From: Dysgonamonadaceae bacterium
GTDB lineage: Bacteria > Bacteroidota > Bacteroidia > Bacteroidales > Azobacteroidaceae
Assembly: GCA_031263685.1 (NCBI GenBank)
Contig: JAISFI010000035.1
Coordinates: 1 to 44,680 of the forward strand
Direction: 5' to 3'
DNA length: 44,680 nt
Shown here: in pieces, positions 21,666-25,609 of the stretch
How the letters are laid out: the number at the start of each line of letters is the position of its first letter
Numbering within the stretch: position 1 is the stretch's first letter
The notes under the pieces: model-generated
Database searches by the model: none
What the model was told of the DNA's origin: nothing
Seen by the model: only the letters and a program-made list of their open reading frames with translations
Translations under genes and position numbers: made by a program

Positions 21666-22398
21666 TCCGTCTTTTATTTATGTACCGGAAACAGCGTCGA
21701 CCAATACATGCCTGAAGGCATTGAACCGACAACAGATTTTGAAGGAAGGTACGGTGGTATATACCTCAAACCAAGTGTCCGGAAGAGGGCAGGTCGGAAC
21801 TTCATGGGAATCCGAACCTGGTAAAAACCTGACGTTTAGTATCATCCTGTTTCCGCAGAAAATCCCTGTGAATCGGCAGTTTATCCTTTCTCAACTGGTG
21901 TCGCTCGCTGTCCGGGATGTGCTTTCGGAAGCGGTGGATTTTATTTCCGTCAAATGGCCGAATGATATTTATTATAAAAATCAAAAAATAGCCGGAATAC
22001 TGATTGAAAATGATATAGAAGGAGATAGCATTTCTGTATCCATTATGGGTATTGGTTTGAATGTTAATCAACGGGTTTTTCTCAGCGATGCTCCGAATCC
22101 GGTATCTCTTTGTCAGATTACGAATAAGGAGTATGATTTACAGTTGTTGATGCAACGAATCGTTGACCGTTTGTTGTTTTTGTATGAAGAAGTAAACGAA
22201 AATCGGCAGGATGACATTATTTCCCGCTATAAAGAATCCTTGTACCGGAAAGACGGTTATCATCTTTTTTCCGATAAAAACGGTATATTTATGGCCACAA
22301 TTGAAGATATAGAACCTGCCGGTGCGATTGTTTTGCGTACCAAAGAAGGCGAACGCCGAAAGTATCTTTTTAAGGAGGTTACATTAAAAATTCCCTGA
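21652..22398 (+). CDS. birA: Biotin--[acetyl-CoA-carboxylase] ligase
   Basis: Activates biotin with ATP and transfers it to the carrier lysine of biotin enzymes. The 248 residues contain only the catalytic and C-terminal domains; the N-terminal helix-turn-helix of E. coli BirA is missing, so it is not a repressor. Motifs: ETASTNTCLK, the biotinyl-AMP loop SGRGQVGTSWESEPGKN, VKWPNDIYY, and KIAGILIEND. It ends in a 20-bp overlap with the convergent AbiEii gene, which marks the left edge of the accessory island. Confidence 0.95.
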   Translation: MSICDPSFIYVPETASTNTCLKALNRQQILKEGTVVYTSNQVSGRGQVGTSWESEPGKNLTFSIILFPQKIPVNRQFILSQLVSLAVRDVLSEAVDFISVKWPNDIYYKNQKIAGILIENDIEGDSISVSIMGIGLNVNQRVFLSDAPNPVSLCQITNKEYDLQLLMQRIVDRLLFLYEEVNENRQDDIISRYKESLYRKDGYHLFSDKNGIFMATIEDIEPAGAIVLRTKEGERRKYLFKEVTLKIP

Positions 22399-23005
22399 CT
22401 TTCTTTTTAAGTTCTTCTTTTATTTCCGTCCATGTTTGCCCTTTGAGGCTGACAGGCTCGTCGCTTTTGTCGGCATCGTCGAAATAAATTATTGCCTGAG
22501 GAATGGAAATCAACAGCATCTGACTTGGAAATTTCGCTTTATGAAATTCAATCATATCCGATAATTTATAATGTTGCAGCAACTCATACAAGTCCCAGAA
22601 ATCTTTCTTTTTTCCTCTGCCAAGAATTGCCTGAATCTTCATAGCAATCAAATCACGGTCGTCATACATGCGTATCTTATCCCATACCTTTACCGGATAC
22701 AATATTGGATTGGGATAGTGCACAATATCTACTTTTACTCCACTGATTTGACAAAAAATGCCCCATTTAGTGAAATTTCCTTCATATACAAATGCCTTGC
22801 CAAATGAACGTTGCAGCGTATCAATAATTGGTTGATGTTCAAATTGATCCACACAAAACAGGTCTAAATCAATCGAAGTGCGATGTCCGTATTTCAAGGC
22901 AAGCGCAGTTCCTCCAACCAAATGAAATGATTGAAGCTCCGGTATCTCCATCAAGGATCTCAATAAGGATAAAGTCCCGGGTATAACTGTCTGAGTTTGT
23001 AGCAT
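22379..23005 (-). CDS. AbiEii/AbiGii-type nucleotidyltransferase (toxin-like)
   Basis: A 208-residue protein of the AbiEii nucleotidyltransferase family. The catalytic motif is HLVGGTALALKYGHRTSIDL, continuing DLF, with Gly31-Gly32 and Asp46/Asp48. The second family motif is RDLIAMKIQAILGRGKKKDF, followed by WDLYELL. In characterised pairs the AbiEii-type enzyme is the toxin and a partner neutralises it. Here it overlaps the upstream DUF6922 gene by 46 nt, a strong sign of a two-gene module. It is convergent with birA and overlaps its end. Confidence 0.9.
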   Translation of the reverse strand: MLQTQTVIPGTLSLLRSLMEIPELQSFHLVGGTALALKYGHRTSIDLDLFCVDQFEHQPIIDTLQRSFGKAFVYEGNFTKWGIFCQISGVKVDIVHYPNPILYPVKVWDKIRMYDDRDLIAMKIQAILGRGKKKDFWDLYELLQHYKLSDMIEFHKAKFPSQMLLISIPQAIIYFDDADKSDEPVSLKGQTWTEIKEELKKKVREFLM

Positions 23006-23322
23006 CTGAAATTTTCTACAGGTTTGTCAATCACAGCGGCAGCAAGCAACATTCTATGTTCCATCAAAAATTTTGCATCAGTCAATGCTTCCGACACTTT
23101 GCCGTCTCCATAATATCGCCTGCATTGCCGTATATCGTCCACATCGCCGCGGTCGAACACGCGCTCAATAATAAAATCGGCATATTTGTCGTAGTCGAGT
23201 TTATCAAAATCTACATCCCAGAAAATTCGTCGATTAAACTTGGGAAGTTTGCCGCCCGGCCCTTCCAGCGGATAGGGATTCTGAGATTGTTTGATAAAAA
23301 GATTTGTATTCTCGGTTTTCAT
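22960..23322 (-). CDS. DUF6922-like protein, probable antitoxin partner
   Basis: A 120-residue protein with RRIFWDVDFDKLDYDKYADF, then IIERVFDRGDVDDI, RRYYGDGKVSEALTDAK and a C-terminal FRCYKLRQL. This pattern matches the DUF6922 group that often precedes AbiEii-like nucleotidyltransferases in Bacteroidetes. It is the first gene of the pair and overlaps the next one by 46 nt, so an antitoxin role is the natural inference, not proven. A TACCTTTG at 23357-23350 lies 28 nt ahead of the ATG and may be the -7 element. Confidence 0.8.
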   Translation of the reverse strand: MKTENTNLFIKQSQNPYPLEGPGGKLPKFNRRIFWDVDFDKLDYDKYADFIIERVFDRGDVDDIRQCRRYYGDGKVSEALTDAKFLMEHRMLLAAAVIDKPVENFRCYKLRQLYPGLYPY

Positions 23323-23366
23323 TTTCTGATGTGACTATTAAACAATATGCAAAGGTAGTGCAATTT

Positions 23367-24353
23367 TTAAAATCTCCGGTTGATTTCGGATAAATTTGCC
23401 TTCGCTTTTGTTAACTCATTTAATGTCTTCTTTTTTTGTTCTAATTGATGTTCTATAATCAAGTCATAGTCGCTTTTATTGTCACCAATTTTACTGAATA
23501 CTACAAAAAGTTCGAGCGATGTTAGAAATAAAAACAATAGAAGATAAAAAATGCCTGCTTCTAATCTTGTAAAAACGATTTCAAACATTGCTCGCAATTC
23601 TTCCAAAAACCCCTGTTTTTCTCCCAATTCAATTCTTAATTTATCTTCTATCTCAATTTTATCTTTATTGTCTTTTTCTTGCAAATTTCTCAAACGTTCA
23701 AGATTGCTGTTGTTCATTTCCACTTGTTTCTTTTTGGGATTCTCAAATATATTTTCTGTTTTAGTTACAGTACGAGAAGTTGGTCTGTTTGTGCTGTCTT
23801 TTGTAGTGGAAGTATTATAAGAAGCCACTGTGTATGTTGGTTTTTTAGCAATTTCTTCATATAATAACATATTCGCATTATCCAATGAATCTATTTCCAT
23901 CTGTCTTTTCTGAATAATCTTGTCTTTTTGCGCGATACGATTAGGAAATTGTTCATTAACTTGTCGATCAACAATTTCAATCATTTTTTTCTCAATATCA
24001 TCTTTAAAAATGATTTGATCAATAATTGCAGATCCGATTAGTGCCATTATAGATGCAATTACAATTCTAAATATTGCAAGCCTACAATTTTTTCCCACAG
24101 TAAGAATAATCTGTCTTTCTATCTGCAAAACAACTATAATCATAACAACAGCAGTAATCACACATCCCCACCAAGGTGCATTAACGTAGCGTTCTGCAAA
24201 TAAATAGCCAATAAGTCCCCAAAGGATTATCAATATTAACAATGCTGAAGTGTATTTTTTTAGTTGTTTACGACTTGCCTCCGTACAAGATTGTAAAATA
24301 CGAAAATTCCAACCTGTGAGCAGGCAACCAATTTTTGTCCACCAATTTTTCAT
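23367..24353 (-). CDS. DUF4407 membrane coiled-coil protein
   Basis: A 328-residue protein. Three membrane helices near the N-terminus (about 36-52, 62-78, 92-112) are followed by a long polar, coiled-coil-prone region (about 118-262). A fourth helix (about 268-288) leads to a short C-terminal coil (290-325). The opening (KIGCLLTGWN) and the helix-loop pattern fit DUF4407, a family of unknown function in Bacteroidetes. With an even number of helices the coil would lie on the side opposite both termini, probably the periplasm. Its ATG overlaps the stop of the 188-residue gene by 4 nt, so it is the last gene of a three-gene unit. Confidence 0.8.
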   Translation of the reverse strand: MKNWWTKIGCLLTGWNFRILQSCTEASRKQLKKYTSALLILIILWGLIGYLFAERYVNAPWWGCVITAVVMIIVVLQIERQIILTVGKNCRLAIFRIVIASIMALIGSAIIDQIIFKDDIEKKMIEIVDRQVNEQFPNRIAQKDKIIQKRQMEIDSLDNANMLLYEEIAKKPTYTVASYNTSTTKDSTNRPTSRTVTKTENIFENPKKKQVEMNNSNLERLRNLQEKDNKDKIEIEDKLRIELGEKQGFLEELRAMFEIVFTRLEAGIFYLLLFLFLTSLELFVVFSKIGDNKSDYDLIIEHQLEQKKKTLNELTKAKANLSEINRRF

Positions 24354-24916
24354 AATATGTCAATTTTCAAGTTTTGCAATGAAAGCGAAGCAAGCCCGCG
24401 TGTAAAGCCTACTTCATACGATTTAAAGATACCTGTCATATACAATTCTTCGTTATCGAGATCTTGTTTCATTTTATTGAGTTCTTCGATATGTTTTTCA
24501 TAAATTCCCTTTTCGGATTTCAAACGTTCTACCAAATCGGTTAGACCAGCATCGCCCCGTGATTGAATGTGAAAATTTATTCTTTGCAGCATATCCTCAT
24601 ATTTTCGTAAAACTTGTTTGAATTTTACTTCCAAGTTGCTGCGGATAATTGCCAAATTTATTTCTTTATGCGACTTGTCGGGATTAGTTAAAGCATCACG
24701 ATATGCTTTGTTCTCATAATCCGCTTTTAAAAAATCGTAAATGATGTCAATTGGCAGTTTAGAGCCAAATTCAACCGAATAAGTTGAATTTTTCTGTTCG
24801 GACGGTTCGGAGTTGTCTATAAAATCTTCTTCTTTAATTTCAGGAAGAGTTTCTTTGTTTTCAACATTTTCTTCCACCATTCTTTCTTCCTTTTTGAATA
24901 AATTGAAAAATCCCAT
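24350..24916 (-). CDS. Unknown helical protein in the HNH-DUF4407 operon
   Basis: A 188-residue protein I do not recognise. It starts MGFFNLFKKEERM, has an acidic disordered stretch to about residue 45, then an alpha-helical body: KLPIDIIYDFLKADYENKAY, a heptad-like segment around LEVKFKQVLRKYEDMLQRI, and a long helix around EKHIEELNKMKQDLDNEEL. It ends with a hydrophobic tail (LASLSLQNLKIDIL). No signal peptide or membrane helix is seen. It overlaps the DUF4407 gene by 4 nt and lies 27 bp after the HNH gene, which suggests a partner role between a nuclease-like and a membrane protein. Confidence 0.75.
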   Translation of the reverse strand: MGFFNLFKKEERMVEENVENKETLPEIKEEDFIDNSEPSEQKNSTYSVEFGSKLPIDIIYDFLKADYENKAYRDALTNPDKSHKEINLAIIRSNLEVKFKQVLRKYEDMLQRINFHIQSRGDAGLTDLVERLKSEKGIYEKHIEELNKMKQDLDNEELYMTGIFKSYEVGFTRGLASLSLQNLKIDIL

Positions 24917-24943
24917 TGTTATAAATATTTAGATATTAGTAAA

Positions 24944-25210
24944 TTAAATATATTTGATAGGTACTTGATAGCGATAATGTCCTCGATTATGACAACTTTC
25001 ACAAAGTGTTACAAGATATTTATCTTCGTAATTCCATGGTTCCACGTGTGTCTCTAATCGCTTTATAAAATGGTACTGTTTGTGATGTATACATAATTTT
25101 CCATTTGATTTGCCACAAATGACACATCTGTTATTGTCGCGTGCCAAAATTCGTTTTTTCTTTTCCAACCAACGAGGGTCGAACAATTTTTCTCCGTAAG
25201 TTACTTTCAT
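24944..25210 (-). CDS. Small HNH endonuclease-like protein
   Basis: An 88-residue protein built almost only of an HNH module: CVIC (29, 32), LCIHHKQYHF with His42-His43, and LCESCHNRGH with Cys70, Cys73, His74, Asn75 and His78. The two Cys pairs would bind a structural zinc. The His pair and the CHNRGH end would form the nuclease site. Small stand-alone HNH proteins occur in phages, mobile elements and defence loci. It is first in the operon with the 188-residue and DUF4407 genes, behind a long structured leader. Confidence 0.85.
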   Translation of the reverse strand: MKVTYGEKLFDPRWLEKKKRILARDNNRCVICGKSNGKLCIHHKQYHFIKRLETHVEPWNYEDKYLVTLCESCHNRGHYRYQVPIKYI

Positions 25211-25233
25211 TGTTTTATTGATTTATTGGCATA

Positions 25234-25535
25234 AAAAGAGCGTGGAACAACCTTATCTGAACATCAGGTTTCCACGCCTACAACTCCGACAAGTTACTCC
25301 ACGCCGCATACAGCGACGTTAGCTAACTTATTCTTGAGTTGTTGCCTCAAAAGAGGTCTATTTTGTGGAAAATGATGTTCCAAGAACAAATAGCAAACGC
25401 TACTTTTTTATATGTCTTTTGTTTTGTCCCGCAAGCAAAATGCTTTTGTTTATGCCATATTTATATTTTTAATTCGTCCAACAATAATTTGTATATATTT
25501 CTTTTCGATATTTTGCATTGTTTTATCGTCTTTTC
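25234..25535 (-). ncRNA. Candidate structured leader RNA of the HNH operon
   Basis: Transcription from the promoter at 25542-25572 would give a leader of over 300 nt. Its last 120 nt can form three hairpins: CCTC-TTTT-GAGG (25356-25345); a long stem of three helices, ACAACTC/GAGTTGT, AAGTTA/TAACTT and ACGTCGC/GCGGCGT (25342-25280); and a terminator-like hairpin (25277-25240). The innermost helix contains a G-U pair on this strand and a C-A mismatch on the other, which favours a minus-strand RNA. It could be an attenuator or a separate small RNA. The function is inferred. Confidence 0.5.
25235..25277 (-). terminator. Terminator-like hairpin in the HNH leader
   Basis: GCGTGGAA and TTCCACGC pair perfectly over 8 bp with a short inner helix, followed after TC by five T on the minus strand. 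It lies 25-30 nt before the HNH ATG, so it would block or attenuate transcription into the operon. Confidence 0.6.
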
Positions 25536-25541
25536 AATCCA

Positions 25542-25572
25542 CAAAAATAGATATTAATCTTGATTAGTCAAA
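25542..25572 (-). promoter_or_regulatory. Promoter reading into the HNH leader
   Basis: On the minus strand TTTG (25572-25569), 19 nt, TATTTTTG (25549-25542): an exact consensus match. It overlaps the divergent pyrH promoter. Confidence 0.7.
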
Positions 25573-25589
25573 ATTTATTTGTACTTTTG
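25559..25589 (+). promoter_or_regulatory. pyrH operon promoter
   Basis: CTTG (25559-25562), 19 nt, TACTTTTG (25582-25589), about 20 nt before the pyrH ATG. One mismatch to the consensus -33. Confidence 0.7.
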
Positions 25590-25609
25590 CTAAAATTAAA
25601 CGCGATATA

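Follow-up and report, generated by a model that had tools for sequence, protein, structure and literature searches.

A three-gene HNH–CC–DUF4407 operon behind a rod-shaped leader RNA: a candidate conflict module of Bacteroidota

The sequence studied (the window) comprises positions 1–44,680 of contig JAISFI010000035.1 from the Dysgonamonadaceae bacterium assembly GCA_031263685.1, and all coordinates given are window positions. It carries three closely packed genes, coding for a predicted nuclease (HNH), a helical protein (CC) and a membrane protein of the DUF4407 family, which almost certainly form a joint system and are preceded by a structured leader RNA:

25226..25406, minus strand: rod-shaped leader RNA, whose end lies 15 nt upstream of the start codon of HNH
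24944..25210, minus strand: predicted HNH-type nuclease, 88 amino acids, with C29/C32, C70/C73, H42-H43 and H74/H78 invariant
24350..24916, minus strand: CC, helical protein and putative adaptor, 188 amino acids, without known family or solved fold
23367..24353, minus strand: DUF4407 membrane protein, 328 amino acids

The gap between HNH and CC is 27 bp and CC overlaps DUF4407 by 4 nt, exactly as given in a preliminary description of this DNA, which had joined the three genes in one candidate system.

Since CC is the most specific part of the trio, it was chosen as bait. CC was present in 13 of 393 genomes of the order, with DUF4407 directly after it in 12/12 relatives and HNH preceding it in 7. 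Among the genomes of 84,980 species, a scan found CC at 46 named Bacteroidota loci. DUF4407 follows CC in 46/46 of them, usually 0–5 bp apart or overlapping, and HNH lies directly upstream of CC in 23/46 (22 found directly, plus L052), normally within 25 bp. The trio is spread over many gut and environmental Bacteroidota. In the reverse search, the HNH subfamily was found in 7 of 247 genomes of the order, with CC and DUF4407 directly downstream in all seven. The joint system is thus strongly supported: far from being rarely adjacent elsewhere, the genes keep a fixed order across genomes, and the HNH subfamily, which might have belonged to an unrelated element, was not found in the order sample without both partners.

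In a tree of CC and DUF4407, rooted at the midpoint, with a very long branch for L038 and several weak branches, the HNH-bearing loci stand on the deepest branches. At least 6 changes between presence and absence of HNH are forced by well-supported branches, and the fewest-changes count gives 8. Because of these deep branches and forced changes, it is likely rather than proven that the trio is ancestral and that HNH was lost several times. HNH is dispensable in the module, since about half of the copies do not carry it. A family of small helical proteins, possibly a further partner, recurs close upstream of CC-DUF4407 at L031:6139-6642, L032:6502-6996 and L062:8552-9028, both where HNH is present and where it is absent.

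The HNH protein matches Pfam weakly (HNHc_6, 0.004; HNH, 0.13) and PHROGs clearly, as an HNH endonuclease (E 1.4e-11). Its signature C29/C32, H42/H43, C70/C73, H74, H78 is invariant across 22 homologues and is of the HNH/treble-clef nuclease type, with both the metal-binding HNH motif and the zinc-ribbon Cys pairs of the endonuclease superfamily. The nuclease-like identity proposed earlier is borne out by these matches and residues, which point to a probable nuclease activity. A search of solved structures by sequence gave no match to this protein, and its sole PADLOC match is PtuB1 (E 0.0086).

The predicted structure of CC is disordered over residues 1–50 and forms a helical bundle over 56–187 (predicted local distance difference test, pLDDT, about 97). 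The assignment of DUF4407 is firm (PF14362, E 2.9e-50, 171.7 bits against a curated cut-off of 31.3), and its model (mean pLDDT 87.5) contains helices resembling transmembrane (TM) helices at 25–57, 61–84 and 90–115, a helical hairpin at 117–170/207–245 with a beta tip, and a fourth TM-length helix at 264–290 followed by the C-terminal helix. Fold searches with either model gave no PDB match at E ≤ 0.001, and searches of solved structures by sequence returned coiled-coil noise only. No PADLOC model fits CC or DUF4407, and none of the three proteins showed a CARF or comparable ligand-sensing domain by sequence profile. Judged from titles and abstracts, none of the papers found to name DUF4407 is relevant. 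CC homologues were absent from phages and IMG/VR, and one weak homologue was found in plasmids. The anatomy of the modelled proteins would suit a sensor–adaptor–nuclease arrangement. The trio is a compact candidate immune module, open to testing, in which the two core proteins have no assigned function or matching solved fold.

The trio and its leader belong to an insertion of about 3.2 kb, which also holds two further genes:

22399..25609, no strand assigned: inserted block; birA and pyrH are contiguous in two relatives without it
22960..23322, minus strand: DUF6922 protein, putative AbiEi-like partner, inside the same block as the trio
22379..23005, minus strand: AbiEii-like nucleotidyltransferase, inside the same block as the trio

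The birA–pyrH junction is empty in L170 and L172, from the same family as the window genome, with a gap of about 20–45 bp, and the block is therefore an insertion into it; in the window, about 3.2 kb lie at this junction and carry, all in minus orientation, AbiEii, DUF6922, DUF4407, CC, HNH and the leader. The housekeeping surroundings (birA, pyrH and frr flank the block), the AT-richness (33–34% GC in the block against about 40–43% around it) and the toxin–antitoxin-like neighbours of the preliminary description were all found. The latter are an AbiEii gene (PF08843, E 5e-18) and an adjacent partner, DUF6922 (PF21956, E 7e-21), that is not recognised as AbiEi. The block ends were searched for direct repeats, and none was convincing. 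Elsewhere in the window, short tandem repeats of GGCCATGGCCGGA-type units at 235–823 produce repetitive open reading frames on both strands.

The leader is truly structured, as had been proposed for a region whose end coordinate, 25572, covers it: compared with shuffles, it folds at z −5.35 as RNA and −4.99 as DNA. Its details are the following:

25388..25406, minus strand: 5' hairpin of the leader, AAAGTAGCGTTTGCTATTT, whose conserved form in the class is AAAGCGTTAGCTTT
25240..25277, minus strand: terminator hairpin GCGTGGAA...TTCCACGC, −15.8 kcal/mol, which would exclude rod stem P2 (TTTCCAC/GTGGAAA)
25233..25239, minus strand: U-tract TCTTTTT after the terminator hairpin

Three loci (L094, L097, L106) were reached through a search with the terminator tail, and not selected on inner sequence or shape, both of which they share with the leader. 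A covariance model built on the window leader and these three found matches in 92 of the 247 sampled genomes of the order; in 79 of these, E was about 1e-5 or better. Some of these genomes hold at least 10 copies, the copy number per genome being a lower bound with at most 10 candidates scored in each. Under stricter filters, a refined model matched 27 of 248 genomes across the phylum, in several families and also outside the class, and found further copies in the window's own genome. A supposed second own-genome copy at C38 turned out to be a chance match within transposase-like coding sequence and was discarded.

Covariation was evaluated on a MAFFT alignment of 35 members, with the rod described as P1 (8 bp), P2 (7 bp), P4 and P5. 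Both sides had changed in 21 of 30 pairs, and double-changed cells numbered 193 against 51.4 in shuffles, with 0/500 shuffles as high; sliding the partner by one base lowered pairing from 94% to about 40%. In a second set, 45/45 members fold at z < −3 (mean −7.5), P1 and P2 use all four Watson–Crick types, and the internal loop AA/ACC is fixed. Rfam 15 covariance models gave no match to the leader. In addition, model R2, run over 939 kb including 13 phage loci with the tail motif, gave three matches only. The tail pattern CACGCYYTTTTTATGCC alone was rejected as a class marker, as it also finds ordinary phage terminators; R2 rejects the 13 phage loci. On this alignment evidence, the leader is with near certainty a member of a class of rod-shaped, covarying RNAs of about 175 nt that is new against Rfam 15 only. 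Thousands of candidate microbiome RNAs are listed in PMC8040213, and the leader may be among them. With matches in 92/247 genomes, often in several copies, and without an Rfam entry, the class would be among the more abundant regulatory RNAs of the order. The window leader, L155 and L157 form a subtype in which a small hairpin is added and the P2 3' strand contains GCGTGGAAA, which makes the terminator compact.

The leader lies just upstream of a gene in its own direction: in 73 of 76 cases the following gene shares its strand (73:3, p about 2e-18), with a median distance of about 47 nt, whereas the gene upstream is on either strand (36:34). The downstream genes are unrelated to one another. 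TonB-dependent receptor plug domains were found in 9/70, many have signal-peptide-like N-termini, and two RibD_C reductases and one restriction-like gene are among them. At seven loci of one Bacteroidota family (L197, L198, L200, L202, L206, L207, L219), the leader stands about 220–370 nt before TonB-dependent receptor genes with CarboxypepD_reg, and in L216 and L227, from two families, it precedes RibD_C (dihydrofolate-reductase-like) genes. In L164 (3992-4174 and 4213-4375), two leaders stand in tandem before one gene, about 38 nt apart; L146 (1249-1424 and 2374-2550) carries a head-to-tail duplication of leader and gene, in which the leaders are nearly identical and the proteins related. 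Of the HNH loci, the window and L059 alone have the leader directly before HNH. Since the same class precedes many unrelated genes, it is a general leader and not part of the trio, although the structured leader of the preliminary description is real. Its targets (TonB-dependent receptors, secreted proteins, a nuclease operon and RibD-like reductases) make what the leader senses testable in gut bacteria.

In the window leader, GCGTGGAA falls within the P2 3' strand and its alternative partner TTCCACGC just before TCTTTTT. Folded in full, the rod has −66.0 kcal/mol and the forced terminator −64.4 kcal/mol, 1.6 kcal/mol apart. Because the predicted rod and terminator would exclude each other and are of near-equal energy, the layout is as expected of an attenuator, and such a function is fairly probable. 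On transcription from upstream, the leader would fold as a long rod and RNA polymerase would pass; alternatively, the GCGTGGAA/TTCCACGC terminator would form and transcription would stop before HNH. Both the direction of this switch and its trigger are inferred. In the commonest form of the leader, the tail CCCACGC matches the P5 3' strand in 98% of cells and three cells are compensatory, so that the same logic of rod and terminator would be plausible there.

The element ends in a U-tract and is multicopy, in tandem in L146 and L164, as would also be expected of an independent small RNA that carries its own terminator, an attC-like recombination site or a miniature inverted-repeat transposable element rather than a cis-acting attenuator. 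Such a nature is rather unlikely, since the strand bias and short gap to the next gene, with a random upstream gene, speak against it, and the sequences of P1 and P2 vary freely although their pairing is maintained, without a fixed attC R box. An attC/integron site was considered first because the leader has imperfect palindromes; it was discarded, as the outer stem varies freely, the conserved R-box ends are not found and the leader precedes genes. A HEARO/IscB-type RNA accompanying the HNH gene was likewise rejected, with no Rfam match and the same leader before unrelated genes.

Regarding the role of the trio, type III CRISPR genes follow it at four loci (L015/L065, L029/L063, L035 and L036). 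L015 matches Cas6b (1.3e-36), Cas10 palm (2.1e-13) and RAMPs (3e-27), and L036 also has a CRISPR array. A double zinc-ribbon gene was observed in L015 between the trio and the type III genes. TOTE conflict-system genes (PDC-M16/TOTE) adjoin the trio in L028, L047 and L063, and RtcR-like CARF_AAA_HTH regulators in L035, L038 and L070. As read from translations, a type I restriction–modification locus lies near the trio in L071, and the L115 copy of HNH-CC-DUF4407 shares its island with a retron-type reverse transcriptase and McrBC-like genes. A divergent WYL-type regulator accompanies several copies. In a PADLOC scan of neighbours, those of HNH-bearing copies recurrently match Cas10/Cas6, PDC-M16 and RtcR, with no such recurrence beside copies without HNH. 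Counted per locus, defence neighbours occur in 8/27 with HNH against 0/24 without it (Fisher p 0.005, related loci being treated as independent). Since HNH-bearing copies adjoin type III CRISPR-Cas, TOTE-like and RtcR/CARF genes and the others show none, a defence role is the best reading and somewhat more likely than not. The defence or conflict module of the preliminary description fits these neighbourhoods, and the role itself is one that we infer from them.

With Cas6b–Cas10–RAMP genes directly downstream at those four loci, one of them with a CRISPR array, the trio might serve type III CRISPR as a dedicated accessory effector that responds to Cas10 signals, the window copy being an orphan remnant. 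But Cas10 stands at only 4 of about 27 HNH-bearing loci (L015, L029, L035, L036), the window trio genes are intact, and neither a CARF-like domain in the three proteins nor Cas10 in the window's draft genome was detected. By the last two tests, the window trio is not a type III accessory, and this explanation is quite improbable.

A defence role has several points against it. About half of the CC-DUF4407 pairs are without HNH, and in a Sphingobacterium clade the HNH-less pair occupies a fixed chromosomal place, suggesting a non-defence role for the pair. Housekeeping genes surround several HNH-bearing copies, including that of the window, the Fisher test counts kin loci as independent, PADLOC holds no model matching CC or DUF4407, and no Cas10 (PF22335) match was found in the window's own genome G000, a fragmented draft that is 93% complete. 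As for the leader, the tail pairing of the commonest form spans a loop of about 70 nt, an unusual geometry, and its covariation rests on 3 cells. The fixed Sphingobacterium pair and the housekeeping surroundings would suit a membrane stress or envelope-maintenance pair, with HNH as an independent gene, a hitch-hiker or one of DNA repair, and with the CRISPR/TOTE linkage due to genomic islands only; the HNH subfamily, however, was found with the pair only (7/7) and is probably ancestral on the tree, and the recurrent defence neighbours stand beside HNH-bearing copies only, which makes this explanation doubtful.

The best overall explanation, given a probability of roughly 0.55, is a horizontally spread three-gene conflict module that is leader-gated in the window. 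HNH, CC and DUF4407 would be one module, in which the small HNH nuclease may be held or gated at the membrane by a complex of DUF4407 and CC. Its opponent would be foreign DNA of phages or plasmids, against which it would work either by itself or in support of a type III CRISPR or TOTE-like system; in the window, a separate leader RNA would gate its expression. The genetic unity, conservation and order of the trio, the repeated loss of HNH, the insertion at birA–pyrH, the predicted folds, the leader's covariation and the near-equal energies of its two states are supported by computation, while formation of an HNH-CC-DUF4407 complex is a conjecture. A wider proposal is offered tentatively: an undescribed membrane-gated nuclease immune module, recruited by type III CRISPR/TOTE, together with a major uncatalogued class of switch-like leader RNAs across Bacteroidota that controls mobile accessory and outer-membrane genes, perhaps answering one common signal.

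Compared with known systems, the leader resembles attenuators and riboswitches in its predicted rod and terminator, which would exclude each other and stand directly before a gene, but differs from them in its rod of about 175 nt, the free sequence of P1 and P2, the unrelated downstream genes and the lack of an Rfam 15 match. Kiwa combines a multi-TM membrane sensor with a DNA-acting effector. The trio likewise pairs a multi-TM protein with a putatively DNA-acting one, a likeness in the idea of working only, whereas it has no PADLOC match to KwaA or KwaB and its gene content differs. With Septu (PtuA/PtuB) it shares a small HNH nuclease in an operon, with the PtuB1 match mentioned above; however, no PtuA-type ATPase was found beside HNH, whose partners are only the helical and membrane proteins, and the trio was rejected as a Septu system. 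Cam1 is a type III CRISPR membrane effector with a single TM helix and a CARF domain (PMC10808066). Some DUF4407 loci similarly code a membrane protein beside Cas10 genes, but in DUF4407 about four helices are of TM length and no CARF was detected, and in most cases Cas10 is not beside it. Although the trio is not thereby a Cam1, its association with type III CRISPR would be sensible by analogy, given membrane effectors of the Cam1 kind.
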